Positions 127 to 17,194 of a stretch of 64,000 nucleotides of DNA are shown piece after piece; positions within the stretch are counted from its first letter, which is position 1; each line of letters begins with the position of its first letter. Below the pieces are notes generated by a model. It saw only the letters and a list, made by a program, of their open reading frames with translations, was not told where the DNA came from and made no database searches. Source of the stretch: Acetobacteraceae bacterium. Its GTDB lineage: Bacteria > Pseudomonadota > Alphaproteobacteria > Acetobacterales > Acetobacteraceae. Both the position numbers and the translations under genes were made by a program. The DNA lies in assembly GCA_003164135.1 (NCBI GenBank), contig PLSD01000018.1, forward strand, positions 61,068-125,067. Direction: 5' to 3'.

Positions 127-3100
127 TCATTCGGCGGCGCTCCGCAGGGCGGGGTGGTCGAGGGTGGTCCAGGGGGGTGGGGCGGATTCGGTGGCGGGCA
201 GGGCTAGGGCGGCGGCGCGGGCGCGGGCGCCGTGGGCGAGGGTGGCTGTGAGGTCGTGGATGGCGGTTGTGAGCGCGGTTTTCCAAGTATCGGCGCGGTT
301 TGTCAGCTGGATAGCGCCGAGGGTGGCGGGGGTGTCGAGGCGGTCGTCGATGAGGAGGTGGCAGCCGGCGGCGGCGGCGATGAGGGTTTTGTAGTGGTCG
401 GCGCTGGTGTCGTGGCCGGCGGGGCGGACCAGGATTTGCGGGGCGAGTTCGGCCATGGCCTGGGCCCAGGCGAATTCGGAGGGTTGCGGCGAGATGCGGG
501 CAACCGCGCCGGAGTAGGTGGAGCCGGGGCGTTCCACGACGATCCAGGAGGCGATTTCCAACGTGCTGTTGATCAGGCCGGTGAACCAGGGCGGGGCGAT
601 GCCTTCGTCGACCCAGAGCACGCGGGGGCGGGTGTTGAGGCCGGTGCCGATTTTCAGGTCTTCCCAGATATGGGGGGACAAAGTGGGGCGCCAAAGCGTG
701 ACGGATTGGCCGGGGGCGGTGAACTGGCGGAGTTGTTTGACCAGCCCCGGCGAGGTGGCGAACAGGCGGGTGGCCACGGCGATGGCTGGTTTGGCGCTGG
801 GCGGCGGGGGGTTGGTGAATACCGCGCTGTAGGCGGGGCTGCCGGGTAAGGCGGCGGTGAGCGGGTTGACGCGGAGCCAGGCGCTGGGGGCGCGGCGGCC
901 GAGGTCGGCGGCGGTGAGGGGTTCGGGTGCCCAATCGGCCTCCAGCGCGCCGGTGCGGCGCAGGGCGCGGGCGGCGTTGAGGATTGCTTCGCCGGCAACG
1001 GGCGGGCCGCTGACCAGCAGGCTGATGGGGTCGGCCGGCTGGCTGCGGACCAGGCCGAGGCGTTGCTCGGAAACCAAGAGATCACCGTGCAGGGAGAGTG
1101 CCGGGTGGTGATATGGGTCTGACCAGGGCAGCGCGCGGGCGGCGGGGGTGCCCTGGCGGAAGGCGAATTGCGTATCCGGGCAGATGGTCTCGGCCGGGAT
1201 GATGAAGGAGACGTCCGGGGTCCAGGCAATCCGCCCGCCTTGGGCGCGGAGCTGGGCGCAGAGGTCGATCCAAAGGGCGTCGCCGGTGAGGCTGGGGAAT
1301 GTGCAGGCGGCCAGGGCGGCGGTGCGGACCATGATGGCGGGCGGTGCGGCGGCGCTGGCTTCCTGATCCACCATCAGCCAGCCGCCGGGGCCGGGGTCGT
1401 CGGACATGTGGCCGGCGCCGAGGCGGGTGTCGGCGCCGATGACGATGGGGCCTTGCACGGTGAACTGTTTGGGGTTGCCGGAGAGCGGCACCAGGGTACG
1501 GGCGGCAACCAGGGCAATGCCGGGGTCGATAAGGCGGGTGCGCAGGGCCTCGGCCCAATGCGGGGTGGCGGGGTGGGCGCGGGCGTCGATGATGGCGGTG
1601 TAAGGGGTGACGGCCAGGGCTGCTGCCTGGGCGAGGGCCTGCGCCGGGGTGAGTGTTGCGGTTGGCGGCACGGCGAGGACTTTGCCCTCAAGGGCGGCGG
1701 TTTGTTGGGTTACGGCGGTGAGATAGCTGGTCATGGCCGGGTTGAGGACCGTGCCGGCGAGGATGATCGGGCCGCTGAGTGCCGGGCCGCTGAGCAAAGT
1801 GGTGAGCCAATGGTCCAGGGCGGCGACCTCGGTGCCGTCGACCAGGAGGATGACCGAGGTGCCGGGGTCGGGCGCCAGGCGCAAATGGTGGAACAGGCCG
1901 AGGTGCTGGCGGTTCTGCACAGTGGCGGGGATGCCGGCGCGGGTGAGATGCGCGGTGACGGCTTCCGCCGCGCGGGCGCAGAAATCAGCGGCGGGGATGC
2001 TGTCGCGGCAGCTTTGCGCGCTGCGGGTGAACAGCGCCTCGGGCAGCCGCAGCACTTGCGCGCCGGTTTCGGCGAGGCGGAGCTGGTAGTCGTATTCCTC
2101 GGCACCGGCGCGGGCGGCATCGAAACCGCCCAGGGCAAGCAGGGTGTTGGCGCGGTACCAGACCCAGTCGCCCAGATAGGCGGACTGGCGCAGGCGGGTG
2201 ATGTCCCAGGCGGGTTTCTGGCGGACCCAGGGGCCGCCGTCGCGCGGGACGATTTCGTCGCAATAGATAAGGCCGGCGGGCGTGGTGGCGGCGGTGAGGG
2301 CGAAGCGCAGGATGGCGTCGGCGGCCAGGGTGTCGCCAGCGTTGAGGACGGCCACGTAGTCGGCGGTAGCGGCGGCGTGGTTGAGTTCGGCACAGAGTTG
2401 GCGGGAGAGGTCGCCGGGGGCGGGTGGCGAGGTGAGGGTGGTGTAGCCGGGGATGGCGAGGGCTTCGGTGGCAATGATTTTGACCGAGGCGGGCAGCTGC
2501 CACTGGCCGCGCAGGGATTCCAGGGTTTCCGTGACGGCGGCGGCGCGCCCGGCGGGAGCGGCGATGATGATGGCGAGGCGCGGCAGGTCTGGGGTGGCGG
2601 CGCGCAGGGCAAGCAGGCGGGCCTCGCCGCCTTCGTCCAGGCGTTCGGCCGGACGGAGGCTGGCGATGGTGCTGGGCGGGGCGTTGGCCACCGCCGCCAC
2701 CGGGCCGCCGAAGCTGGGGATCACGCGGCCGCGGCTGGCGCCGATTTCGGTGAGGAAGCCGACCATGTCGGCGGTTTCCTCGGCGAAACCGTCCCATACC
2801 GCAGGCATGAAGTTGCGGGCGAGAATAGCGTCCCAGGTGCGGGTGACGAGGTCGCGCAACGGGCGGGCGAGGTCTTCCTGCGGTGACGGTTCGCTGCGGT
2901 TGAGCTGGGAGGTGAGGTAGGCGGCGCCGTCCGCCATGCCGTTTGGTACCAGGTGGGAGAGCGCGATGCCGGTGTCCTGCTCGATGCGGTTGAGTTGTCC
3001 GGCGGGGTTGGCCAACAGGTCATGGTAGGTGAGCCAGCTGCGCGATAAATGCCGGGCTTGGCGCTCGCCGGAGGTGACGTAGCTCATCCATAGCAGCAGT

Positions 3101-3585
3101 GCGTGCGCGCGGGTGAGGCCGTTTTTGTGCTGCTGGCTGGAGGCGGCGGTCCAGGGGTCACGGAAAATATGCACGACATGGGGGTTGTGACCAGCCTGGA
3201 GGGCGGCGCGCTCGTACAACGGCAGGGTGCGGCAGAGGTGCGGGTGCTTCAGGCCCCAGACTGGATTAGCGACTGGATAAGCGACTGGATCAGCGGCGGT
3301 GAAGCGGCGGCGCAGGATGGCATCGAGGCGGGAGAGAAACGGTGCGAGGTCCGCACGGTCCGCCCAGCCGGTGGGCAGGCCGCGCACGTCGGTCCATTCC
3401 ACGCCGAGGCGGTTGAACAGGTCAACGTCGAACTCGATCAGCTCGGGGATTTCGTAGAAGCCGAGCGGGTTGTGCTCATTGGGGTCGGCCTCGTTGAAGA
3501 ATTTGACGCCCAGGCGTTGCAGCGCGCCGGAAAGTGCTGAGGTACCGCTGCGGTAATAGCCGACAATGAAAATGGCATCTGACAC
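127..3585 (-). CDS. Sulfotransferase-glycosyltransferase multidomain fusion
   Basis: This 1152-residue protein joins several transferase modules. Residues 1-270 form a PAPS-type sulfotransferase with the phosphosulfate loop GYYRSGTS (9-16) and the 3'-phosphate loop FRDPWTAASS (141-150). From about 330 to 560 is a family-2 glycosyltransferase-like region containing AVLNAGDT and a GGFD segment. A second, weaker GT2-like region spans about 570-800, and the C-terminal third resembles a GT1/GT4-type fold. The GTG start has AAGGAG 8 nt upstream. It lies 11 bp after flgL at the end of the fli operon, so modification of flagellin or other surface glycans is a reasonable inference, but the substrate is unknown. 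The first two domains are well supported; the C-terminal assignment is weak. Confidence 0.8.
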   Translation of the reverse strand: MSDAIFIVGYYRSGTSALSGALQRLGVKFFNEADPNEHNPLGFYEIPELIEFDVDLFNRLGVEWTDVRGLPTGWADRADLAPFLSRLDAILRRRFTAADPVAYPVANPVWGLKHPHLCRTLPLYERAALQAGHNPHVVHIFRDPWTAASSQQHKNGLTRAHALLLWMSYVTSGERQARHLSRSWLTYHDLLANPAGQLNRIEQDTGIALSHLVPNGMADGAAYLTSQLNRSEPSPQEDLARPLRDLVTRTWDAILARNFMPAVWDGFAEETADMVGFLTEIGASRGRVIPSFGGPVAAVANAPPSTIASLRPAERLDEGGEARLLALRAATPDLPRLAIIIAAPAGRAAAVTETLESLRGQWQLPASVKIIATEALAIPGYTTLTSPPAPGDLSRQLCAELNHAAATADYVAVLNAGDTLAADAILRFALTAATTPAGLIYCDEIVPRDGGPWVRQKPAWDITRLRQSAYLGDWVWYRANTLLALGGFDAARAGAEEYDYQLRLAETGAQVLRLPEALFTRSAQSCRDSIPAADFCARAAEAVTAHLTRAGIPATVQNRQHLGLFHHLRLAPDPGTSVILLVDGTEVAALDHWLTTLLSGPALSGPIILAGTVLNPAMTSYLTAVTQQTAALEGKVLAVPPTATLTPAQALAQAAALAVTPYTAIIDARAHPATPHWAEALRTRLIDPGIALVAARTLVPLSGNPKQFTVQGPIVIGADTRLGAGHMSDDPGPGGWLMVDQEASAAAPPAIMVRTAALAACTFPSLTGDALWIDLCAQLRAQGGRIAWTPDVSFIIPAETICPDTQFAFRQGTPAARALPWSDPYHHPALSLHGDLLVSEQRLGLVRSQPADPISLLVSGPPVAGEAILNAARALRRTGALEADWAPEPLTAADLGRRAPSAWLRVNPLTAALPGSPAYSAVFTNPPPPSAKPAIAVATRLFATSPGLVKQLRQFTAPGQSVTLWRPTLSPHIWEDLKIGTGLNTRPRVLWVDEGIAPPWFTGLINSTLEIASWIVVERPGSTYSGAVARISPQPSEFAWAQAMAELAPQILVRPAGHDTSADHYKTLIAAAAGCHLLIDDRLDTPATLGAIQLTNRADTWKTALTTAIHDLTATLAHGARARAAALALPATESAPPPWTTLDHPALRSAAE
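3259..3294. repeat. Three 12-bp tandem repeats in the sulfotransferase domain
   Basis: Three direct copies of GACTGGATNAGC lie end to end (3259-3270, 3271-3282, 3283-3294) and differ only at the ninth base. On the coding (minus) strand they encode a Pro-Val-Ala rich insert around residues 98-109 between the two cofactor loops. The 12-bp unit keeps the frame, so copy-number change would not disrupt the protein. Confidence 0.85.
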
Positions 3586-3596
3586 GGAAGCACTCC

Positions 3597-4814
3597 TTAA
3601 ACGTAGTTGAACAGGCTGAGGCTCTGCACGGTGCCAAATGTTTTCATGGCGGCCTGCAAGGCGGTGAGGGTTTGGTCCAGGCTGGCGATGGCGACCGGGG
3701 TATTAATGGCGGTCGCGTTCTGCACGCTGGTTTGGACCTGGGTGGATTGGTTGGTGTTGCTGGCGGCGGCGTTGGTGATGGCCTGCAAGGTGACGCCGTT
3801 CTGCGCCTGCGCGGTGACGACGTTCTGCTGGTACTGCCCGAGACTGGCGAGGCTCTGGTTGAGCACCTGGTTGGTCTGCGCCACCTGGGCCGGCGTGCTG
3901 CCCGCCGTGGATAGGGTTTGGTAAATGGTTTGCAGCAGGGCGAAGGCCGATTGCGGCCGGCTGGGCGCCAGCGTGAAACTGTCGCCCGAGGCGGGAGTGC
4001 CGGTGATCTGGTAGTCAACGCCGGCGAGCTGCACGGTGTTGCCCCCGGTGGTGGTGTTGCTGGAGAGCGTGCCGCTGGCCAGAGTGGTGCCGCCCTGGGA
4101 CGCGCTATAGCTGCCGCCGCTGCCGAAACTGACCGTGATCGCGGAGGTGCCGGACTGGAACGCCGCGGCCGCCGCCGCGTTGACCACGCCCTGCGGGATG
4201 ATCTGGCCGGAGCCGGTGTTGCTGCTGGCGGCGGCCACGCTGGCGGTGCCGTCCCCGGTGAGGCCGGAGACGAAAACCTCACCGTTGGCGATGGTGGAGG
4301 CGGTGGTGCCGGCGGTGATGGCTGCCTGGCTCTGTGCGCCGTCCCCCATGTAGACGATGGCGCCGCTGCCGCTGCTGGCGGTCTGGAAGGGGGCGACGCC
4401 GCCGCGCGAGCCGCCGAACAAATAGGTGCCGTTGGGCGCGGTGGTGTTGCCGATGGCCAGCAACTGCTTGGCCGCGGATTGCACCTGACCGGCCAGAGCG
4501 TTGAGGTTCTGCGAGCTGGTGGTGCCGTTCAATGCGGCCTCGACCACCGACTGCACGCTGTTCAGCAGGCTGCTGGTGGATTGGTAGGCGTTGCTGACGC
4601 TGCCGAGCTGCACCTGGATGGCGGCCTGGGTGTTGTTGTCGTTGGCGAGCGCGCTGATCTGGTCGTTGCCCAGGGCCGCGGTCTCGTAGGCCGCGGGGTT
4701 CTGGTCGGGCGTTTGCACCGCCAGACCAGTGGAGATCTGCTGCTGCAGCGTGTTGATCTGGGCTTCCTGCAGCGCCACGTTGGCATTGAAGTTGGTGTAG
4801 AATGAGAGGTCCAT
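3597..4814 (-). CDS. flgL: Flagellar hook-filament junction protein FlgL
   Basis: A 405-residue hook-associated protein (HAP3) that joins the hook to the flagellin filament. It has the flagellin-like N-terminal helix with LQQQISTGLAVQTPDQNP at about residues 25-42 and a C-terminal helix rich in Gln, Asn and Ala, with a low-complexity Ser/Gly/Thr middle. The frame is open much further upstream, to 5429, but that extension overlaps fliJ and fliI in another frame and is Arg/Pro-rich shadow. The true start at 4814 begins MDLSFYTNF and is preceded by GGAG. It follows fliJ after an 11-bp gap. Its partner FlgK is in the other operon at 28225-30156. Confidence 0.93.
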   Translation of the reverse strand: MDLSFYTNFNANVALQEAQINTLQQQISTGLAVQTPDQNPAAYETAALGNDQISALANDNNTQAAIQVQLGSVSNAYQSTSSLLNSVQSVVEAALNGTTSSQNLNALAGQVQSAAKQLLAIGNTTAPNGTYLFGGSRGGVAPFQTASSGSGAIVYMGDGAQSQAAITAGTTASTIANGEVFVSGLTGDGTASVAAASSNTGSGQIIPQGVVNAAAAAAFQSGTSAITVSFGSGGSYSASQGGTTLASGTLSSNTTTGGNTVQLAGVDYQITGTPASGDSFTLAPSRPQSAFALLQTIYQTLSTAGSTPAQVAQTNQVLNQSLASLGQYQQNVVTAQAQNGVTLQAITNAAASNTNQSTQVQTSVQNATAINTPVAIASLDQTLTALQAAMKTFGTVQSLSLFNYV

Positions 4815-4825
4815 TTTGGTCTCCT

Positions 4826-5248
4826 TCAGGTCCGGGGGGCGGCGGGCCGCCAGGGGCGGTCGCGTTCCAGGCGTTGTTCGGTTTCGCGCTCCACCGCCAG
4901 GGCGGCTTTGCGCAGGGCCTCGGCCAGGGCGCGGCGCTGCACTTTGACCTGGCTGAGCTTGGTGACGGCGGTTTCCAGCTGCGCGGCGGCGACGCCGGCG
5001 GCGTGCATGATTTGACCCTCGGCGCCGTGCGAGGCGGCGGAGAACTGGCCGGCGCGGCGGGCCTGGGATGCCGGGACGATGGCGCCGTCCTGCCAGCTTT
5101 GCGCGAGGCGGGTGCGGTAGGCGGCGAGGATGCCGCGCTGCTGTTCGGCTTGGTGCAGGGTGGCGTTGTGGCGGCGGATGGCCTCCAGCGCCTGGGTTTC
5201 CTGTTCGGCGGCCAGCATGGCCAGCCGGTTGAGGGTGCGGGGTTTCAT
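4826..5248 (-). CDS. fliJ: Flagellar export chaperone FliJ
   Basis: A 140-residue, almost entirely alpha-helical, charged coiled-coil protein. In the export apparatus FliJ sits in the centre of the FliI hexamer as a stalk, contacts FlhA and helps escort substrates. Sequence similarity in this family is low, so the call rests on size, the Arg/Glu/Gln-rich heptad pattern (residues 5-60 and 85-130) and position: its ATG overlaps the fliI stop as ATGA and flgL follows. Length matches the family (about 140-150). Confidence 0.85.
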   Translation of the reverse strand: MKPRTLNRLAMLAAEQETQALEAIRRHNATLHQAEQQRGILAAYRTRLAQSWQDGAIVPASQARRAGQFSAASHGAEGQIMHAAGVAAAQLETAVTKLSQVKVQRRALAEALRKAALAVERETEQRLERDRPWRPAAPRT

Positions 5249-6591
5249 GGTTGTTGCTCCGCCAAAGCGGTTTGCAATGCGGTGAGGCTGGCGGCGAGGT
5301 TGATGCCTTCGTGCATGTCCTGGCGCAGCACCGCTTCCATCGCGGGGGCGCGGCGCAGGGCTTCGTCGAGCAGCGGGTCGCGGCCGGTGGCGTAGGCGCC
5401 GAGGTCGATGATGTCCTGCTTTTCGGCACGGCGTGCCCAGAGCGCGCGGAAGCGCGAGGCGAGTTTTTGGTGCGCGGGGGTGACCAGGCTGGGCATGGGG
5501 CGCGAGAGGGAGGCGACGATGTCGATGGGCGGGTACATGGCGGCTTCGGCGAGGGCGCGGGAGAGTACGATGTGGCCGTCCAGCACGGAGCGGGCGGTGT
5601 CAGCTACCGGGTCGCCGACATGGTCGTCGCCTTCCACCAGCACGGTGTAGATGGCGGTGATGGAGCCCTGCGACGAGGTGCCGTTGCCGGCGCGCTCCAC
5701 ATAGGCGGCGAGCGCGCCGAAAACCGAGGGCGGGTAGCCCTTGGTGGCGGGGGGTTCGCCGACGGCGAGGCCGATTTCACGCAGGGCCATGGCGAGGCGG
5801 GTGAGGGAATCGACGACCAGGAGGACGTGGTTGCCTTGGTCCCGGAAGTATTCGGCGATTGCCGCCGCGCGGTAGGCGCCGTGCAGGCGGCCCAAGGCGG
5901 TGTCGTCCGCCGGGGAGGCGATGACGACGCTGCGGGGGCGGGCGTCGCCCAAATGTTCCTCGATGAATTCGCGGATTTCGCGGCCGCGTTCGCCGATCAT
6001 GCCGACGACGACAACATCGGCGCTGGCGTGGCGGGCCATCATGCCGAGCAGGGTGGTTTTGCCCACGCCGCTGCCGGCGAACAGGCCGATGCGCATGCCT
6101 CGGCCCATGGTGGCGAGCGCGTTGATGGCGCCGACGCCGACATCGAACACCTGGGAGATGCGGGTGCGGGCCATGGGGTTGAGCGGCACGCCAAGGAGCG
6201 GCCACGGCTGGGTGACATTGGGCGGAGGCAGATTGTCGAGCGGCTGGCCGCGCGCGTCGAGGATGCGGCCGAGCAAAGCGGGGCCCATCAGCGGGGCGGG
6301 GGCGCGGCTTTCGACGTGGACGCGGGCACCGCGGGTGACGCCGCGGGTGCCTTGTTCGGGCATGACCAGCAGGGCGCCTTGTTCAAAGCCGACAACTTCG
6401 GCGGAGAGCAGGTCCGTGCTGTTCTCGGTCTCGATAAGGCAGCGTGAGCCGATGGGGGCGCGGATGCCGCTGGCGTGCAGGACTTCGCCGTTGGAGCGGG
6501 TGATGCGGCCGAAGCGGCGGACGGGGTCGCGGGAAAGGGCTTCGCGCAGGCGCTCCTGGGCCAGGGCGCGGATATTGTCCATCTGGATCAT
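5245..6591 (-). CDS. fliI: Flagellum-specific ATPase FliI
   Basis: A 448-residue F1-beta-like ATPase that energises type III export of flagellar subunits at the inner membrane. The Walker A loop is AGSGVGKTT (172-180), Walker B ends at VLLVVD (Asp261), and the family signature PPIDIVASLSR lies near residue 360. The N-terminal beta-barrel domain covers about 25-95. The start at 6591 overlaps the fliH stop as ATGA; a second in-frame ATG (MDNI) lies three codons later. Full length for the family, with no missing catalytic motif. Confidence 0.97.
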   Translation of the reverse strand: MIQMDNIRALAQERLREALSRDPVRRFGRITRSNGEVLHASGIRAPIGSRCLIETENSTDLLSAEVVGFEQGALLVMPEQGTRGVTRGARVHVESRAPAPLMGPALLGRILDARGQPLDNLPPPNVTQPWPLLGVPLNPMARTRISQVFDVGVGAINALATMGRGMRIGLFAGSGVGKTTLLGMMARHASADVVVVGMIGERGREIREFIEEHLGDARPRSVVIASPADDTALGRLHGAYRAAAIAEYFRDQGNHVLLVVDSLTRLAMALREIGLAVGEPPATKGYPPSVFGALAAYVERAGNGTSSQGSITAIYTVLVEGDDHVGDPVADTARSVLDGHIVLSRALAEAAMYPPIDIVASLSRPMPSLVTPAHQKLASRFRALWARRAEKQDIIDLGAYATGRDPLLDEALRRAPAMEAVLRQDMHEGINLAASLTALQTALAEQQP

Positions 6592-9138: not shown

Positions 9139-9707
9139 GATACGGTTTCTCCCTTCAAGGCGGCATTCATGTGGATCGCCAGACTTTCCAGCGCGCGCTT
9201 GCGGATTCGCGAAGCGTAGCCCTCGCTCAGGTCGAGAATGGCAGCGACCTCGCGGTTGTTCATTTCGTCGTAGAAATGCAGGGCCAGCACCTGGTATTCG
9301 AGTGCCGGCAAGGTTTTGAGGGCCTCGACCAGGAGGTGGCGGGCGTCGGCGCGCAGCAGCAGGGCAAGCGGGTCGTCGGGCGAGGTGCCCCCCATGAAGG
9401 CGGCCGTGTCCACGGCGTCGGCGTCGAGCATGAACTCGCCGCGCCGCTGCGTACCGTCGCGGCGAAGGCCGTCGATCATGGCGCCACGGATGCGCCTTGC
9501 GGCGAAGGCTTCGAAGGCGACGCCGTGGGTGCGGTCGAAGCGGCCCATCGCCTCCAGCATGCCGATGGCGCCCCATTGCAGCAGCTCGTCAAACTCGGCC
9601 CAGGGCATGCGTGATTTGAGCATGAGCGCGGTGCGCTTGATCCAGCCGCCGTAGAGCGCGGTTAGATGCGGCTGGTCCGGAGTGAGGGTGGCAGGGCCGT
9701 TATCCAT
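9135..9707 (-). CDS. fliA: Flagellar sigma factor FliA (sigma-28), shortened form
   Basis: A 190-residue sigma-70-family factor for late flagellar promoters. Region 2 is clear (DELLQWGAIGMLEAMGRFD, then RIRGAMIDGLRR), and region 4 is clear (LPALEYQVLALHFYDEMN, then a helix-turn-helix with SEGYASRIRKRAL). The stretch between them is only about 26 residues, whereas E. coli FliA has about 80, so most of region 3 is missing. The start at 9707 (MDNGPATL) overlaps the flhA end by a few bases; the open frame upstream to 9797 lies inside flhA. motA follows with an ATGA overlap. Confidence 0.85.
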   Translation of the reverse strand: MDNGPATLTPDQPHLTALYGGWIKRTALMLKSRMPWAEFDELLQWGAIGMLEAMGRFDRTHGVAFEAFAARRIRGAMIDGLRRDGTQRRGEFMLDADAVDTAAFMGGTSPDDPLALLLRADARHLLVEALKTLPALEYQVLALHFYDEMNNREVAAILDLSEGYASRIRKRALESLAIHMNAALKGETVS

Positions 9708-11796
9708 TGGCGGCGCCCGGCTCGGCGGTGTGGACGACCTGCAGGGGCAGGGTTTCGGGAATTTCCTCCAGCGCGAGGACGGGGATGATGCCGCCAATGG
9801 CGCGCGCGATGGCGCGGCGGATGACGCCTTGCACGACCAGCACGGGTTTCAGGCCGCGCAGGCGCATGGCGCGGGCGGCGTTTTCGGCGGCCTGGCGCAG
9901 ATGCGTGGCGGTTTCGGCTTCCACCTCCGGGCCGAGGCCACTCTCGCGCCCGGTGCGCAGGGATTTGGCGACCAGCTCCTCCAGACGCTGTTGCAGCACG
10001 GCGACGCGCAAAGTTGGCTCAGCGCCCGCGACCTGGGTAACGATGAAGCGGCCGAGGCGCAGGCGCACGGCGGCGAGGAGTTTTTCGATGTCCTTGGTGC
10101 CGCCGTCGGCGGCTTCGACCAGGGCCTCGCCGATGCGCTCGAAGTCGCGGATCGGCACTTCCTCGGCCAGCAGGCCCTGCAGCACCTGGCGGATGAGGCC
10201 GATGGAGAGGTTGGTGCGCAAATCTTCCGCGAGGCGGGGGGTGGTTTCGGCGAGGCGGGTCATCAGGCCCTCGACCTGCGGGCGGCCGAGCAGTTCGGCG
10301 CCGTGGCGTTTGAGGATTTCCGCGAAATGCGTGGCCATGGCGCTGGGGGCGTCGACCACGGTGTAGCCGAGGTCTTCGGCGGCGGGGATGCCGCCCTGGG
10401 GGATCCAGACCGCGGCCTGGCCGAAGGCGGGGTCTTTGACGATGCGGCCGATGCTGAGTTTTTCGGTGACCATCGGGCCTTCGATGGCGAGCCATTGGCC
10501 GGGCCATGCTTCCCCACCGCCGATGGAGGCGCCGCGCAAGGTGAAACGGTAGCCGTGCGCGGGGAGATCCGAGGAGTCCCGGATATGCACGGCGGGGACC
10601 AGGAAGCCCATGGCGCGGCCGTAGCGCTGGCGCACGGCGGTGAGGCGGTTGAGTAGACGCCCCTCCCCCGGCCCAACCAGCGGTGCCAGCGCGAAGCCGA
10701 TGTTCATGCCCAGCGGGTCAACGCCGGTGACGTCGATCAGGGAGTCGGTTTTGACCTCGTTGTTCTGCGCGGCAGCGGGGGCAATGCCGGCGGCGGCCGC
10801 TTCGTCCTGGGCTTTGGCGGTCTGCGACAGGCGCCAGGCGGCGGTGCCCAGGGCGGCGGCGAAGATGAGGAAGGGGACGTGCGCCATTTGGGGCACGAGG
10901 CCGATGGCGCCCATGATGGCGGCGGCGATGGCCAAAGCCTGCGGGTATTTGCTGAGCTGGGATTTGATCTGCTGGCCGATGTCCTCGCCGGTGGCGACGC
11001 GGGTGACGACGAGGCCGGCGGCAACGGAAATGGTGAGCGAGGGGATTTGCGCGGCAAGGCCGTCCCCCACCGTGAGCAGCGTGTAGGTGCGGGCGGCGTC
11101 GGCCAAAGGCAGGCCGTCCTGCAGGGTGCCGATGACGAGGCCGCCGAGCATGTTGACTACCAGGATGATCATGGCTGCAACGACGTCCCCCCGGACGAAT
11201 TTGGAGGCACCGTCCATGGCGCCGAAGAAATCGGCTTCGCGGCGCAAATTGTCGCGGCGGCGCTCGGCGGCTTGCGGGCTAAGGATGCCGGCGTTGATTT
11301 CGGCGTCGATGGCCATTTGGCGGCCGGGCAGAGAGTCCAGCATGAAGCGGGCGGAGACTTCCGCGACGCGGCTGGCGCCCTTGGTGACGACCATGAAGTT
11401 GATGATGATGAGAATGACGAAAATGATGCCGCCGACGACGAAGTTACCGCCGACGGCGAACTGGCCGAAGGATTCGATGACGCGGCCGGCCGCACCGGGG
11501 CCGGTGTAGCCGTTGAGCAGGATGGCGCGCGCGGTGGCGACGTTGAGGGCCAGACGCATGAGCGTGGTGGCGAGCAGCACGGAGGGGAAGGAGGAGAATT
11601 CCGACGGCGAGGGAATGTAGAGGCTGGCGCCGAGGATGACGAGGCCGGCGGAGATGTTGAGCGCGAACAGGAAGGAGATGGCTGCCGGGGGCAGCGGCAC
11701 CACGAGCATCGCCAGCACCAGCAGGATGACGATGGGGCCGGAGAGCTGGGTGGCGCTGAGCGAGCCGGGGCGCGGCAGGATGGCGGCTTCAGCCAT
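9700..11796 (-). CDS. flhA: Flagellar export gate protein FlhA
   Basis: A 698-residue inner-membrane export gate component. About eight membrane helices occupy residues 15-325; the cytoplasmic FHIPEP-family signature lies around 120-165, with GGNFVVGGIIFVILIIIN and SARFMLDSLPGRQM. The C-terminal half is the soluble ring that docks chaperone-substrate complexes and forms the nonamer. Length equals that of other FlhA proteins. It overlaps fliQ by 8 nt and fliA at its 3' end. In this operon it is separated from fliR and flhB, which lie at 32-34 kb. Confidence 0.97.
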   Translation of the reverse strand: MAEAAILPRPGSLSATQLSGPIVILLVLAMLVVPLPPAAISFLFALNISAGLVILGASLYIPSPSEFSSFPSVLLATTLMRLALNVATARAILLNGYTGPGAAGRVIESFGQFAVGGNFVVGGIIFVILIIINFMVVTKGASRVAEVSARFMLDSLPGRQMAIDAEINAGILSPQAAERRRDNLRREADFFGAMDGASKFVRGDVVAAMIILVVNMLGGLVIGTLQDGLPLADAARTYTLLTVGDGLAAQIPSLTISVAAGLVVTRVATGEDIGQQIKSQLSKYPQALAIAAAIMGAIGLVPQMAHVPFLIFAAALGTAAWRLSQTAKAQDEAAAAGIAPAAAQNNEVKTDSLIDVTGVDPLGMNIGFALAPLVGPGEGRLLNRLTAVRQRYGRAMGFLVPAVHIRDSSDLPAHGYRFTLRGASIGGGEAWPGQWLAIEGPMVTEKLSIGRIVKDPAFGQAAVWIPQGGIPAAEDLGYTVVDAPSAMATHFAEILKRHGAELLGRPQVEGLMTRLAETTPRLAEDLRTNLSIGLIRQVLQGLLAEEVPIRDFERIGEALVEAADGGTKDIEKLLAAVRLRLGRFIVTQVAGAEPTLRVAVLQQRLEELVAKSLRTGRESGLGPEVEAETATHLRQAAENAARAMRLRGLKPVLVVQGVIRRAIARAIGGIIPVLALEEIPETLPLQVVHTAEPGAANG

Positions 11797-12052
11797 GGAT
11801 CAGCCCCGGAATCGCGTGGAAGAGGTCGATGGCGTAGTGCTCGACGCCGCCCAGCATGAGCGGGCCGGCGGTGGTGGTGAGTGCGGCCATGCCGGCGAGT
11901 TTGAGCACGAAGGGGATCGAGGCTTCACGGATCTGCGTGGCGGTTTGCAGGATGCCCGCACCCAGGCCGATGATGAGCATGAGCAGCAGCACCGGCCCCG
12001 CGAGTTCCGCGAAAGCCGTCCACGCGCCGATGCTGACACCGTTTGAGGTCAT
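11789..12052 (-). CDS. fliQ: FliQ-family export gate protein, first copy
   Basis: An 87-residue protein with two membrane helices around a conserved FliQ core: VLLLMLIIGLGAGILQTATQ and then IREASIPFVLK. FliQ forms part of the FliP-FliQ-FliR export channel. Its ATG overlaps the fliM/N stop (ATGA) and its end overlaps flhA by 8 nt. A second, clearly different FliQ (31868-32143) sits in its usual place between fliP and fliR, so this is a paralogue. Which copy works in the channel, or whether both do, cannot be told from the sequence. Confidence 0.88.
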   Translation of the reverse strand: MTSNGVSIGAWTAFAELAGPVLLLMLIIGLGAGILQTATQIREASIPFVLKLAGMAALTTTAGPLMLGGVEHYAIDLFHAIPGLIHG

Positions 12053-12426
12053 GCCCCGGCCTCGTTCGCGGCGTCCATGTCCTCAGCCAAGGCGGTGACG
12101 CGCACGCCGTAGCGGTCGTTGGCGACGGCGACGACTTCGCCGTAGGCAAGTTTTTGGCCGTTGGCGAAAATGGTGAGGGGTTCGCCAACCATTTGGTCGA
12201 GCGTGACGACCTGACCGTGGCGGAGCTGGCGCAGGTCTTTGACCGTGATCTGGGTGCGGCCGAGTTCGACGGTGAGCGCGACCTGCACGCGGTCCAACAC
12301 GTTTTTTCCGGTGATGGCGGGGGCGCCGCGGGTTTGCGGCTGGATGCGCTCCAGCTCGACACGCTCGTGTTCGGGGGCCATGTTTTTTTCGCCCGCCGTG
12401 GTGGTGCGTTCTTTCTGGTCGGCCAT
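12049..12426 (-). CDS. fliN: FliN made from an internal start within fliM/N
   Basis: Translation from the in-frame ATG at 12426 would give a 125-residue protein starting MADQKERTTT, close to normal FliN length (about 110-140). It ends with a full SpoA domain that forms the lower part of the C-ring. The start has AAGGAG at a spacing of 8 nt, as good as any in the operon. A strict fusion gives FliM and FliN at 1:1, while known C-rings contain about three FliN per FliM, so an extra free FliN would make sense. Internal initiation itself is inference. Confidence 0.65.
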   Translation of the reverse strand: MADQKERTTTAGEKNMAPEHERVELERIQPQTRGAPAITGKNVLDRVQVALTVELGRTQITVKDLRQLRHGQVVTLDQMVGEPLTIFANGQKLAYGEVVAVANDRYGVRVTALAEDMDAANEAGA

Positions 12427-13323
12427 GGATGCGTCTCCTTCAGTGGGGCCGTCCGCCTTCACGCGGCAGCAAACGTAGCCGTCGTTCTGGCCGTACTCGG
12501 CGTGGAACAGGTCGATGCCGCCGGAGACGGCGATTGCCTCCGGGGACAGAGCGAACGGCAGGATTTTGCCGGGATGCAGGGCTTCGAACACGGCCAGCGG
12601 CACGGTGACGCGGGCAAGTTCGAAGCAGATGTCCACCGGCGTGGTTTCGGCGAGGGTCTCGATGGCCGCGGCCCAGCCGGCGTCGGCGCCGCGCTGGCCG
12701 AGCAGGCCCGATTGCGAGGCGACCTTGGCCTCCAAAGGTTCGAACCCTGCATAGGGGGCAATGAGCTTGATGGTGCCGGTGCCGAGCGCGGTTTCGAAAA
12801 TACCGGTGACGCAGATCATCCAGTCCTGGCCGTCGGCGATGGCGAGCATGCCGGTGGCATTTTCATAAGCAATGGGGGTGAGGTTGAGCTGGGCCAGGGG
12901 GCTTAACGTTTCCTGGATGGTCGCCAGGGAGAGGTCGATCATCTGCTTGCCGATGCGCGCTTCCAGGGCGGAGAGCTCGTAACGCTCGAACGGGTGGGAG
13001 GCGGTGGCGCCGCACATGGCGTCGACCACGGCGCCGATGAGGTCACCGTCAATCGCCAGGAGCATGCGGCCGCGTAAGGGGGCGAGTTCGCTGACGCCGG
13101 CGAGCATGACCTCGGGCAGTTGCGACATCGCGGCTTCGTGGCTGGTGACGCCGTTGATGCAGCTGAGCAGCTGTACGCTGTGGCGCATGCGCTGGAACAG
13201 GGCGAAGGCGATCTGGCGCATGAAACGGTCGGAAAGGTTTTCCATGAGCAGCGAGCGCAGCTGCGGGGCGCGCATGGAATCCAGCAGGTCGAGGGCTTCG
13301 ACGTCCTGCGGTTGTTCAAGCAT
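12049..13323 (-). CDS. fliM: Flagellar motor switch protein: FliM-FliN fusion
   Basis: A 424-residue open frame containing both C-ring switch proteins. Residues 1-299 are FliM: a short acidic N-terminus (DVEALDLLD, reminiscent of the CheY-binding EIDALL motif), a CheC-like middle domain, and a SpoA domain at about 225-287. After a linker (KADGPTEGD), residues 300-424 match a whole FliN with its SpoA domain (VQVALTVELGRTQITVKDL). There is no stop between them. A Shine-Dalgarno and an ATG stand exactly at the junction, so a separate FliN is probably made too. It overlaps fliK by 8 nt and fliQ as ATGA. Confidence 0.9.
   Translation of the reverse strand: MLEQPQDVEALDLLDSMRAPQLRSLLMENLSDRFMRQIAFALFQRMRHSVQLLSCINGVTSHEAAMSQLPEVMLAGVSELAPLRGRMLLAIDGDLIGAVVDAMCGATASHPFERYELSALEARIGKQMIDLSLATIQETLSPLAQLNLTPIAYENATGMLAIADGQDWMICVTGIFETALGTGTIKLIAPYAGFEPLEAKVASQSGLLGQRGADAGWAAAIETLAETTPVDICFELARVTVPLAVFEALHPGKILPFALSPEAIAVSGGIDLFHAEYGQNDGYVCCRVKADGPTEGDASMADQKERTTTAGEKNMAPEHERVELERIQPQTRGAPAITGKNVLDRVQVALTVELGRTQITVKDLRQLRHGQVVTLDQMVGEPLTIFANGQKLAYGEVVAVANDRYGVRVTALAEDMDAANEAGA
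12435..12440 (-). promoter_or_regulatory. Internal ribosome binding site for FliN
   Basis: AAGGAG on the minus strand, 8 nt before the internal ATG at 12426, inside the fliM/N open frame. A perfect site at exactly the domain boundary is unlikely to be chance and decides the proposed separate FliN start. Confidence 0.65.
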
Positions 13324-14683
13324 AGGCGCTTACCCCGCTGGGAGTGGCGGCAGCGGGGGTGACGGCTGCCACGGGGGATGGGGTGGAGGTGGTGGCGCGC
13401 TGGTTGTTGGCGCCGTGCTGGCCGGGGTTTTGCGCGCCGCCGCCACTGACACCCGCCTGGCCGAGGGTGAGGCCGGTGGCGGCCATGGCTTGGCGCAGGC
13501 CGTCCATGCCCGCGTTGAGGAGCTGGGCGGTTTGCGGGGTGCTGGGCACGAAGAGGACGTTGACATGGCCGTTTTGGCCGAGGGCGAGGTGGACGGAGAG
13601 ATTGCCGAGGCCGGGAGGGTCCAGCTGGAGCACCGCGGTGGTTTGGCTGGCGTGGTGCATGGCGGTGACGGTGGCGGCCAGGGCGGCGGGGGTGGCAGCG
13701 GTGGGCGGCGTGGTGGGGGTGACGGCGGGCGCGGCGGTGACCGGCGCGGGGGGGCTGGGGGCGGTGGGGGCGAGCGTGGGCTGGGCGGCGAATGCGGGCG
13801 CGGTGGGGGTGGTGAGGGTGGTGAGGGTGGCAGGAGCCGGAGAGGTGATTGCGGGGGTGAGGCTGGTGGATTTTTTGTCGCCAAGGGCCGCCGCGCGGGG
13901 GGCGACGCTGACTGCGGCTGACACCGAGGCAACCGGGGGGGCGGCCAGGGGCGCGGTGAGCGCGGCTGGGGATTTGGCGGCGGGCTGGGGCGCGGTGGCG
14001 GCCAGCGCGGCGGCGGCGCTGGCCGGGGCCTGGGGGGTTGGCGCGATGGTGGCCACGGGCGCGTTGACGGCGGGGGTGACTGGCGGCGCGGCCGTGGTGC
14101 TGGCGGCGGCCGGCGTGGCGAGGCTGCCGTGTGCTGGGGCGGCCTGGGGGGGCGGAAATTGCGCCGGGGTGGGGGAGGATGCGTCCGCGGCGGCGGCGGA
14201 TGTGGTTGGGACGGTGGTTGGGGTGGTGGTTGGCTGGACCGGCGCGGCTTGGGATGAGGGCGGCGCGGTATCCGGCGCGGCGGGTTCCGCCGTGATGGCG
14301 CCGGGGACGGCCGGGATGGCCGTGCCAAGTGTGCCGGGGGGCGCTTTGGCGGCGGCGGCAGTGATGCCGGTGGGGGGGGGTGCCGCGGGGCTGGCCGGTG
14401 CATGGGCTGGGGTAGCGGCAGGGGTGGCGGCGCTGAGAAGCATGGCGGCAAAGGGGCTGAGGCCGGGCTGGGCGGGGTCGGTGTGTTTGCGCGGCGCGGT
14501 AGCCGCAACCGTGGCGGCGGCGGCGGATTTGGTGTTGTCCGGGGTGGCTTTGGCGGGGGCGGGTGCCGCGCCGGCCTCGGCAAGGGCGCTCGACCATGCC
14601 GCCGGGTTGGCGGATTGGGGGGTGGATGTGCTGGGGGTGGCAGCAGTGGGCGCGGCTTGGATGGGAGCGGTAGCGGCGGTCAC
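13316..14683 (-). CDS. fliK: Flagellar hook-length control protein FliK
   Basis: A 455-residue protein with a long low-complexity Ala/Pro/Thr-rich N-terminal two thirds, typical of the exported ruler part, and a C-terminal FliK domain at about 325-430: TTAVLQLDPPGLGNLSVHLA, then LRQAMAATGLTL. FliK measures the hook and switches FlhB specificity through this domain. It overlaps fliG as ATGA and fliM/N by 8 nt. The composition makes long opposite-strand open frames (for example 13344-14705 plus) that are only shadows. Confidence 0.87.
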   Translation of the reverse strand: MTAATAPIQAAPTAATPSTSTPQSANPAAWSSALAEAGAAPAPAKATPDNTKSAAAATVAATAPRKHTDPAQPGLSPFAAMLLSAATPAATPAHAPASPAAPPPTGITAAAAKAPPGTLGTAIPAVPGAITAEPAAPDTAPPSSQAAPVQPTTTPTTVPTTSAAAADASSPTPAQFPPPQAAPAHGSLATPAAASTTAAPPVTPAVNAPVATIAPTPQAPASAAAALAATAPQPAAKSPAALTAPLAAPPVASVSAAVSVAPRAAALGDKKSTSLTPAITSPAPATLTTLTTPTAPAFAAQPTLAPTAPSPPAPVTAAPAVTPTTPPTAATPAALAATVTAMHHASQTTAVLQLDPPGLGNLSVHLALGQNGHVNVLFVPSTPQTAQLLNAGMDGLRQAMAATGLTLGQAGVSGGGAQNPGQHGANNQRATTSTPSPVAAVTPAAATPSGVSAYA

Positions 14684-15702
14684 ACCATTTCCTCCGTGGC
14701 GCTGATGGTGATGCGGCCTTCGCCGGACAGGCGCAGGGCGACTTCCACCACCTCGGACTGCGCGGCCAGGGCGTCGGCGCGGCGCATGGGGGGGCCGCTG
14801 CGCAGTTCTTCCTTGAGGACTTCGACCTGGCGGGCGGAAAGATTCTGGAAGAAGCGGGCGCGCAGGGATTCGTCGACCAGGCGCAGCGCGGGGGCAAGTT
14901 TGTCGCCGGGGACCTCGCGCAACAGGATTTGCAGCGAACGGTCGGTGAGTTTGCCGAGGTCGAGGAAGGTGAACAGGTTTTCGCGGATTTTCTCTGCGGT
15001 TTTGGTGTCGCGCGCGTCAATGGCGCCGAGCACCATATCCGACATGCCGGTTTGCAGGTGGTTGAGGATGTCAGCGGTTTGCTTGGCGCCGCCGAGGTTG
15101 CCGACGCGGCGGCCGCCGGTGGCGCTATTGCTCATCAGCTCTTCGAGCATGTCGCGCAGCTCGATGACGGCACCGGGGGAGACCACGTCCAGCGTCGAGA
15201 AACGGTAGAGGGATTCGGCGGCCAGGGGCTCGGGCAAAAAGGTAAGCAGGTTGGCGCCGATTTCGTGCGGGATGTGGGCCAGCAACAGCGCGATGGTCTG
15301 CGGGCGCTCGTGGACCATTTGCATGGCGAGCGTGCGCGGGTCGGCGTTGGCGGGCAGGTGAAAGGCGGAGCGGCGCTCGGAGCGGCTGAGGCGGTCGAGG
15401 ATTTCGCGCGCCTGCGTTTCACCCAGGGCGGAGACCAGCACGCGGTTGAGGAATTTCATGCCGTCGCCGCCGACGCCGGTGATGCCGAGGTCGCTGGCGA
15501 AGGCGAGCATGATGTCCTCACGCACGGCCGGTGGGGTGGCTTTGAGTGTGGTCATGGCAAGGGAGATGCGGTTGACCGCGGCTTCGTCCATTTCGCGCAG
15601 TACAGCGGCTGCGGTTTCCTCGCCCAATTCGCGCAGGACCATGGCGGCGCGCTCGGCCCCGCTTAGCTGCGGGGCGGCGAGTTGCTTGGGAGTGTCATTC
15701 AT
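14680..15702 (-). CDS. fliG: Flagellar motor switch protein FliG
   Basis: A 340-residue C-ring rotor protein that meets the MotA stator. N-terminal, middle and C-terminal armadillo-like domains are all recognisable: GAERAAMVLRELGEE near residue 15, HERPQTIALLLAHI near 130, and the torque-helix region with LFTFLDLGKLTDRSLQILLR near 245. Length is standard. The start at 15702 (MNDTPKQL) overlaps the fliF stop by 8 nt; the open frame further upstream lies in fliF. Its end overlaps fliK as ATGA. Confidence 0.96.
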   Translation of the reverse strand: MNDTPKQLAAPQLSGAERAAMVLRELGEETAAAVLREMDEAAVNRISLAMTTLKATPPAVREDIMLAFASDLGITGVGGDGMKFLNRVLVSALGETQAREILDRLSRSERRSAFHLPANADPRTLAMQMVHERPQTIALLLAHIPHEIGANLLTFLPEPLAAESLYRFSTLDVVSPGAVIELRDMLEELMSNSATGGRRVGNLGGAKQTADILNHLQTGMSDMVLGAIDARDTKTAEKIRENLFTFLDLGKLTDRSLQILLREVPGDKLAPALRLVDESLRARFFQNLSARQVEVLKEELRSGPPMRRADALAAQSEVVEVALRLSGEGRITISATEEMV

Positions 15703-17194
15703 TGTCTTCGGCCCAGGTTTGCAGGAGGCGGGCGACGCCGGGGATGTTGCCGCCGGCCTGTTCACGCAGGTCCGAGAAGTCTCGCGGCGGCAGCGCCACG
15801 GGCATGGAGCGCTGCGGCGGGGGCGGTAGGAGGGCTTGGATGTTGATGGTGCCGATGCGCCGCCCGACCGGCAGAGCCAAGCCGAACAGCAGGGCGGCGG
15901 CGGCGAGGAGTTCCAGCAGCCCTTGGGTGAGAGGTGCCGCGGCCTGGGCCATGACGCCGGAGGACAGGCTGGTGGCGGGTTTCTGGAAGGAGGCGGCAAG
16001 GACGTTGACCGTGACCTGCGGGTAAGCAAAGGCGCCGGCGATGGCAGCTTTCACCTGCTCAGTGGTGACGGCGCCGAGTGCGGCTTTATTCAGGACGACG
16101 GAGACGGCGACGGATTTTACCGTCCAATCGGGGTTGGTGATGTCGCTCTCGCTCTGGTCGGTAACGTAGGTCTGGTCGAGGTTGCTGCTGGTTTGCTGCG
16201 GCTGCGCCGGAGTTGCGGGCGGTGCACTGGTGGCGCCGGGGGTTGGGGGCGTGGCTGTGGTGGGGGATGGCGGCTCGTTGGAAAGGGCGCCGGGGATGCC
16301 GATGGCCGCCATGGAAGCGCCGTACTGGCTGGACTGCGCGCTGACCTGATGCGTGACCAGATGCGAGGGGCCGTAGGATATTTGGTGGATATGCTCCTGG
16401 GTGAAGTCCAGGTTGGCGGCGACGTCCGTTTGGAAGTTGCCCGCGCCGACCAAGGGGATAAGCAGGCCCGCGATGCGCGCGGCGGCGCTGGTTTCAACCT
16501 GCGCGACGGTGGCGAACTGGGTGCCGGTGGTCATGTTGTCCCCCGCCGGATAGACGGCGACACCGGAGGTGGTTTCCACCGTGACCTGGTTGGCGGACAG
16601 GCCGGGGACGGCGCCGGCGACCAGGTTTGCGATGGCTTCGCCTTGCGATTGCGCGGTGGCGTCGTCCGCCTGGATGACGACGGAGCCGGTGGGCTTGGGT
16701 TGGTCGGCGAGGAAGGGCGTGTCCGGGGGCAACGCGAGGAAGACCTGGGCGCTGTGGATGCCGTTGAGGCTTTGGATGGATTGTTGCAGCGAGAGTTCCA
16801 GCGCCTGCACCGCCATGGTGGATTGCGCGAGGTCCGAGGCGGTCATCGGCGCATTTTCCAGCTGCGCCCAGGCGGTGGAGACATCTGAGCCGGGCACCTG
16901 GGCCTCGCCCAGTTGCAGACGCGCCTGTGCCAATTGCGGCTCCGGGACAAGAATGATGTTGCCGGCGGCTTGCAACTGATAGGGGATGCCGAGTTTTTGC
17001 AGCTGGGCGATAACCTTGCCGCCGTCGGCGGGGGAAAGGCCTTCATCCAGAACGACGTAGGGCGGGCCTGCCATTTCCAGCCAGACCACCACGGCGAAGG
17101 ACACCGCGATGACGCCACCGGCCGCCCAAAAGATTTTGGGCAGACGCGCGGCTTGCGCCCGGACCTGATGGAGAAGTTCCCGGCCGGATTGCAT
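15695..17194 (-). CDS. fliF: Flagellar MS-ring protein FliF
   Basis: A 499-residue MS-ring protein. An N-terminal membrane helix (about 20-42), a periplasmic ring-building motif of the YscJ/FliF type, a Thr/Pro-rich loop around 310-335, and a second membrane helix near 435-455 are all visible. The C-terminal cytoplasmic tail, which binds FliG, is about 45 residues. It is slightly shorter than enterobacterial FliF (about 550). The ATG overlaps the fliE stop by one base (TAATG) and the end overlaps fliG by 8 nt, so the ring and switch are translated together. Confidence 0.96.
   Translation of the reverse strand: MQSGRELLHQVRAQAARLPKIFWAAGGVIAVSFAVVVWLEMAGPPYVVLDEGLSPADGGKVIAQLQKLGIPYQLQAAGNIILVPEPQLAQARLQLGEAQVPGSDVSTAWAQLENAPMTASDLAQSTMAVQALELSLQQSIQSLNGIHSAQVFLALPPDTPFLADQPKPTGSVVIQADDATAQSQGEAIANLVAGAVPGLSANQVTVETTSGVAVYPAGDNMTTGTQFATVAQVETSAAARIAGLLIPLVGAGNFQTDVAANLDFTQEHIHQISYGPSHLVTHQVSAQSSQYGASMAAIGIPGALSNEPPSPTTATPPTPGATSAPPATPAQPQQTSSNLDQTYVTDQSESDITNPDWTVKSVAVSVVLNKAALGAVTTEQVKAAIAGAFAYPQVTVNVLAASFQKPATSLSSGVMAQAAAPLTQGLLELLAAAALLFGLALPVGRRIGTINIQALLPPPPQRSMPVALPPRDFSDLREQAGGNIPGVARLLQTWAEDNE

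Follow-up and report, generated by a model that had tools for sequence, protein, structure and literature searches.

A fliM-fliN fusion gene in the flagellar operon of the Acidocella group, with a conserved internal start that probably yields free FliN

The window, the whole stretch of 64,000 nucleotides analysed here, carries an operon-like run of flagellar genes in the order fliE-fliF-fliG-fliK-fliMN-fliQ-flhA-fliA-motA-motB, in which fliM and fliN form a single frame (12049..13323, minus strand). The fused gene sits among flagellar genes, with fliK and fliQ adjoining it. fliK (13316..14683, minus strand), assigned by its Flg_hook family match, overlaps the start of the fused gene by 8 bases, and fliQ (11789..12052, minus strand), assigned by PF01313, overlaps its end by 4 bases. 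fliG (14680..15702), fliF (15695..17194) and flhA (9700..11796), all on the minus strand, were assigned by position and translation and by comparison with related operons, where homologues stand in the same order around fliG. The names fliE, fliF, fliG, fliA, flhA, motA and motB were given by recognition rather than from a family search. Elsewhere in the window are fliH, fliI (named by an ATPase match and its position), flgD-flgK, fliP, fliR and flhB. Among the other frames, one of 610 aa at 3597-5429 (minus strand) matches the flagellin N-terminal family only at residues 212-341 and adjoins a 1152-aa frame at 127-3585 with a weak sulfotransferase match; another, of 714 aa at 40945-43089 (minus strand), has no Pfam match at E<=0.001, and a beta-helix protein is encoded nearby at 45305-47863. 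The genome to which the window belongs has three CheW matches.

In the original prediction, FliM and FliN were described as a single stop-free frame of 424 residues, with AAGGAG, 8 nt and an ATG at the boundary of the two parts, from which a free FliN of 125 residues could be read. Codon reading of 12049..13323 agrees in all these particulars and puts the frame on the minus strand, which the prediction had left unstated. The frame starts with the ATG at 13323, ends with the stop at 12051-12049 and is stop-free inside over 424 codons. The putative internal Shine-Dalgarno sequence (SD) AAGGAG lies at 12435-12440 on the minus strand; the A of the internal ATG (12424..12426, minus strand) is at 12426, in codon 300 (Met300), and counting from this codon gives 125 aa for the proposed free FliN reading frame (12049..12426, minus strand). 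Four parts of the fused protein were delimited on the minus strand: the FliM middle (CheC-like) domain (residues 21-200, 12724..13263), the SpoA1 or FliM C-terminal domain (residues about 229-288, 12460..12639), a disordered inter-domain linker holding the internal start signal (residues 292-338, 12310..12450) and the SpoA2 or FliN domain (residues 343-412, 12088..12297). In Pfam searches, PF02154 (FliM) matched residues 21-200 with 63 bits against a cut-off of 27, and the FliMN_C/SpoA family PF01052 matched two stretches, the best at 343-412 and the second in the SpoA1 region. The free FliN part alone scored 77.8 bits with PF01052, against a cut-off of 23.8.

An AlphaFold2 model of the fused protein (mean pLDDT 74.2, pTM 0.47) was used for the folds of the domains and not for the pairing of SpoA1 with SpoA2, given a pLDDT of 74 and a pTM of 0.47. 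It contains a FliM middle domain resembling the known structures of that domain, SpoA1 strands near 229-288, a disordered stretch at 292-338 with pLDDT below 50, and SpoA2 near 347-412. The internal ATG is carried by the disordered linker, so a second chain can begin there without cutting a fold. The top PDB matches of the model in Foldseek were chains of the flagellar C-ring structures 8wiw, 8umd, 8umx and 8vid, assigned as FliM by length and coverage; structures 4yxb and 4yxc of the engineered FliM(SPOA)::FliN fusion were within the ten best, at 28-30% identity. The FliM N-terminus (13263-13323, minus strand) is short, with residues 1-20 predicted to be disordered; they include EALDLLD, which by eye bears only a loose likeness to the CheY-binding motif.

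The NCBI models of FliM and FliN both score the protein under their cut-offs. The FliM equivalog model TIGR01397 gave 134.5 bits on the fused protein, below its cut-off of 219.6, and by this measure the FliM part appears to be a divergent FliM. The FliN domain model TIGR02480 gave 78.5 bits on the whole protein, slightly under its cut-off of 84.05. FliY is similar in that a SpoA domain of the FliN type comes after a CheC-like fold, but the present protein has two SpoA domains, and FliY models fall far below cut-off: PRK08119 gave 66.3 bits against 218, in a match confined to the C-terminal part.

The expectation that no separate fliN would be found elsewhere in the genome was upheld. Four FliMN_C matches were obtained at E<=1 in the window's genome; the two that exceed the cut-off both lie inside the fused gene, and the profile search found no separate fliN above it.

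A comparison of related genomes for separate or fused fliM and fliN, proposed along with the original prediction, revealed the fused frame in 33 genomes and adjacent separate genes in G221, G253, G309 and G357, all four in flagellar operons. The fusion occurs in 31 of the 38 genomes of the window's genus, which includes Acidocella aquatica and A. aromatica, the named nearest relatives (90% and 78% identity, respectively, in the best segment). A second genus of five genomes has two with the fusion, one with a 351-aa protein (G130) and two with nothing; the G130 protein, which has two SpoA matches in one frame, was rejected as a fusion since by eye it looks like SctQ. The 33 genomes hold 35 fused genes, with two copies each in G187 and G399, where every copy adjoins its own fliQ and flhA and has an internal start. 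The genus count includes G402, in which a 248-aa fragment at a contig end still covers the junction; this fragment is absent from the FliM trees and from alignment A1 (34 of the 35 fused genes) and present in the GGA and 5-nt SD counts given below. A sequencing error hiding a stop or frameshift near the junction, which had been named as a possible flaw, is excluded, since the frame is open in all 33 genomes.

Seven genomes of the genus are without the fusion. G397 has separate fliM and fliN, and only a separate fliM was found in G413; the two were rejected as fusion bearers, their FliM of 334 aa being ordinary by eye. No FliMN_C match was present in G398, G407, G410, G415 and G418, among which a flhA match occurred only in G415. 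The flhA of G415, a genome 85% complete in 380 contigs, is of the Acidocella type. In a family sample of 397 genomes, at least 16 had a one-frame stop-free match over most of the query, 14 in the window's genus and 2 in the second genus. In profile searches of a class sample (385 genomes) and a phylum sample (398 genomes), no full-length one-frame fusion beyond the window's own was among the matches listed; the profile was made from 34 fused genes of this group, so that distant fusions may be missed, and the class and phylum samples overlap. Long FliN/FliM frames in G988, G1057, G777 and G1129 proved on reading to be separate genes or overlapping frames. Within this scope, the suggestion that a flagellar fusion of this kind would be unusual is sustained.

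The junctions of the 35 fused genes were read and sorted by us into 29 start-bearing genes, in which a linker ATG is preceded by an SD-like stretch, and 6 start-less genes (G053, G179, G283, G368, G420 and G325). A match of 5 nt to the SD consensus, 4-11 nt before the junction ATG, is present in 26 of the 29 start-bearing and 0 of the 6 start-less genes. Control ATGs were internal and in-frame, taken from past codon 40 of the open frame with the linker excluded; such a match precedes 0 of 278 of them in the start-bearing genes and 2 of 101 in the start-less genes. With a 4-nt rule the junction ATG is preceded by an SD in 29/29 start-bearing and 0/6 start-less genes, and the control ATGs in 29/278 and 9/101, respectively. 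Three of the 29 genes (G068, G140 and G187b) have only the 4-nt match. The fused genes of A. aquatica NBRC 112502 and A. aromatica DSM 27026 are among those with the start signal. When synonymous codons were shuffled within genes 500 times, an average of 7.6 of the 29 genes, and never more than 14, had a 5-nt SD, against the 26 observed. Some linker ATG, free of an SD, is also found in five of the six start-less genes.

The conservation extends to the level of the codon. The glycine of the SD is encoded by GGA in 23 of the 23 core genes having this glycine and in 25 of 26 across the wider set of 29. GGA makes up 8.2% of all glycine codons in 24 core genes, and reaches 17% at most at 25 other conserved glycine columns. 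On the codon tree of the 23 core genes, no synonymous change was counted at the SD glycine column, compared with 1-10 at the 25 others. Since 12 of 234 conserved degenerate columns are likewise without synonymous change, invariance alone is not unique; the invariance of a rare codon is. The signal is kept while the junction peptide varies (EGDASM, QGDMDM, SGDDAM, EEESEM, NEGPSM, GGTDM), and the SD persists where the glycine is lost (G187a, GAGGAGGAG) and where the glutamate is lost (G411, G409 and G419). Counted against windows of the same gene, so that the composition of the linker may contribute, the start-site windows are less structured than most: 20% or fewer of the gene's windows are equally open in 25 of 26 genes, and 44% in G256. 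A conserved in-frame internal start with an SD before SpoA2, as in dual-product genes of the SctQ type, is thus present.

Single-gene synonymous tests at the junction were not significant (p 0.11-0.77 across the 29 genes), because the peptide Glu-Gly-Asp alone often spells an SD, and the case therefore rests on the joint pattern. In two predictions, made with differing settings, the internal SD did not come out as clearly stronger than the SD of the main start; a 2:1 excess of free FliN is hence not predicted by SD strength. The window and its closest relatives have an out-of-frame TGA immediately ahead of the SD, which hinted at a recent loss of a stop; this origin was dropped since the TGA is missing in other clades.

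The occurrence of standalone fliN is reciprocal to that of the internal start. Outside the fused genes, no other FliMN_C match at E<=0.01 was found in any of 27 genomes with a start-bearing fusion, 8 of which are under 90% complete. Five of the six genomes with a start-less fusion have a standalone fliN, located between fliK and fliQ, the place occupied by the fusion in start-bearing genomes. The start-less fusions themselves stand elsewhere: none of the window's other nine operon genes was detected in their surroundings (7 to 14 kb, six genomes). At a distance of about 3-5 kb from the start-less fusion, G283:C62, G368:C66, G325:C13, G179:C2 and G053:C68 have CheW-domain genes whose size suggests cheW and cheA; the search covered these five of the six start-less genomes. 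The sixth start-less genome, G325, seems to have lost this flagellum, as it contains neither a standalone fliN nor a match to flhA; rated 100% complete, it retains the fused gene at G325:C13:769-1983, with the CheW-domain genes near. The motif ERVELE is present in 5/5 standalone FliN and 0/6 start-less fusions, and is exact or near in most start-bearing fusions, those of G140, G256 and G187b being more divergent. Such a pattern would be expected if two jobs had been divided between the copies after a duplication. The prediction of a short FliN product is supported on two counts: the SD is conserved down to its codons, and standalone fliN and the internal start occur reciprocally. That both proteins would be made and needed, as in SctQ-type genes, has indirect support from the standalone fliN of the start-less relatives.

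With six unfused relatives as the root, the FliM tree unites all six start-less genes in a single clade (FastTree 0.93, IQ-TREE ultrafast bootstrap 98). This clade joins the start-bearing G399b (0.97, 93), with the remaining start-bearing lineages outside; in an outgroup-free tree the same two nodes have 0.79 and 0.60, and the other deep nodes of the FliM tree are weak. The nesting of the start-less clade in start-bearing lineages suggests that the fusion with its internal start is most likely the older state. As the start-less genes form one clade, the five of six with a standalone fliN are best counted as one event and not as five independent cases. All fused genes stand apart from the six unfused relatives with support of 1.0 and 100, in a tree whose sequences do not include SctQ. 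With four of these relatives in flagellar operons, the arrangement looks independently evolved. The FlhA tree does not group the standalone-fliN operons, the nodes separating them having only 0.30-0.35 as printed after re-rooting. In the FliN tree the standalone FliN fall with the FliN halves of G399a and G399b (0.96), and the FliN halves of the start-less fusions have long branches.

These results suggest that one gene of the flagellar operon makes two proteins, a FliM-FliN fusion and, by internal initiation, a free FliN; the probability of this is put at about 0.9. Were the fusion instead strictly 1:1, with one FliN per FliM in the C-ring, the SD and ATG would be a relic from a time when the genes were separate. 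In related systems, separate fliM and fliN do stand side by side (G221, G253, G309 and G357), and a relic would be expected just after fusion; yet it would decay, and here a rare codon has been kept in all 23 core genes over deep divergence. The separate fliN in five of the six genomes whose fusion is without the signal speaks against a strict 1:1 fusion as well, which makes it an improbable account. Free FliN could also be released by post-translational cleavage of the linker, in keeping with the predicted disorder of residues 292-338. Cleavage leaves the conserved synonymous positions and the ATG unexplained, however, and the linker peptide itself is poorly conserved, so that this route is very improbable.

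If FliN were made from a short transcript of its own, begun at a promoter within fliM, the same SD and ATG would be used, and their conservation is consequently not against this route. No sigma-70-type site was found in 11800-13600, which is a weak argument as the scan was of the sigma-70 type only; such a transcript has a small chance of being the source of FliN. That the gene belongs to an injectisome as SctQ, and not to a flagellum, is hardly credible: it does match the SctQ equivalog TIGR02551 with 78.4 bits, but this is under the cut-off of 100.8, a FliM middle domain is present, and the genes around it are flagellar. The small N-terminal domain, not CheC-like, that is expected of SctQ is absent, and the CheC-like FliM middle domain stands in its place (PF02154, Foldseek). 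Internal initiation from the fused gene is thus retained as the preferred reading, and the gene very probably works with two products as first proposed. Beyond that proposal, the comparison of genes points to selection at the codon level, a reciprocal standalone fliN and a derived clade with two genes.

Translation from 13323 would give the 424-residue FliM-FliN fusion, in which SpoA1 and SpoA2 would pair within one chain. Ribosomes would also start at ATG 12426, guided by the AAGGAG in the linker, and produce the free FliN of 125 residues. With about two free FliN added to every fusion, a C-ring unit would contain three SpoA2 domains for one SpoA1, the composition of other flagella. We infer the making of the short protein, its amount, the SpoA1-SpoA2 pairing and the stoichiometry from the pattern of the genes. 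In the derived clade the gene was seemingly duplicated: one copy would have moved out of the operon and lost the internal start, and the other, remaining in the operon, would have been reduced to a plain fliN by loss of the FliM half.

Dual products of this kind are described for injectisomes. In the available text of PMC4832279, the Spa33, YscQ and SsaQ genes each give two products, one full-length and one C-terminal, which in the case of Spa33 are described as forming a 1:2 complex, and SctQ is proposed to be equivalent to a FliM-FliN fusion; the available text of PMC4443714 reports an internal start in SpaO and a crystal structure of FliM(SPOA)::FliN. The analogy with SctQ drawn in the original prediction is backed by these two sources, and internal initiation of free FliN is, on the best reading of the sequences, convergent with it. 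As in SctQ (Spa33, YscQ, SsaQ, SpaO, HrcQ), one gene is proposed here to yield a SpoA1-SpoA2 chain and, by an internal start, a SpoA2-only chain; unlike in SctQ, the protein carries a true FliM middle domain in its N-terminal part and the neighbours are flagellar. The argument that C-rings hold three FliN per FliM likewise finds backing, in the 1:3 ratio given in PMC4832279 and the building block of one FliM and three FliN in PMC11087270, as far as their available text goes; ratios of 1:3 and 1:4 were measured in different studies (PMC4832279, PMC4443714).

The separate FliM and FliN of Salmonella and Thermotoga have the same domains and folds and the same SpoA1:SpoA2 ratio as is proposed here, but are encoded by two genes with a stop between them, and not in one frame. 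A Salmonella FliM-FliN fusion mutant (Kihara 1996, via the available text of PMC4832279) had few, fragmented C-rings and was complemented by FliN. The domain order of that mutant and of the engineered 4yxb construct is the same as here, where, unlike in either as far as they are described, the fusion is the natural state in a genus and has an internal start. The nearest flagellar precedents found, both in the available text of PMC4832279, are preliminary indications that Thermotoga fliY may be expressed in alternative ways and the mention of an alternative start site inside E. coli fliN. No report of a natural flagellar FliM-FliN fusion or of an internal FliN start was found in the literature searched, which covered few subscription journals, and the listed matches to a search on Acidocella, flagella and FliM contained nothing on a fusion or an internal start; the review PMC12471899, whose wording seemed to fit, concerns other proteins.

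The two-product gene would be a flagellar parallel to SctQ and supports the published idea that SctQ is equivalent to a FliM-FliN fusion. One FliN fixed to FliM, together with a source of free FliN that can be mutated silently, would make the number of free FliN needed testable by tuning one start site. It is fairly probable, on the trees and the distribution of genes, that the Acidocella group evolved the SctQ solution independently, as a natural FliM-FliN fusion with an internal start for free FliN, and that in one descendant clade, where a gene with two products seems to have given way to two genes with one product each, the two jobs were split between them, the FliM-fixed FliN and the free FliN becoming different proteins. 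If this is true, the FliN places of the C-ring unit would be non-equivalent and genetically distinguishable.
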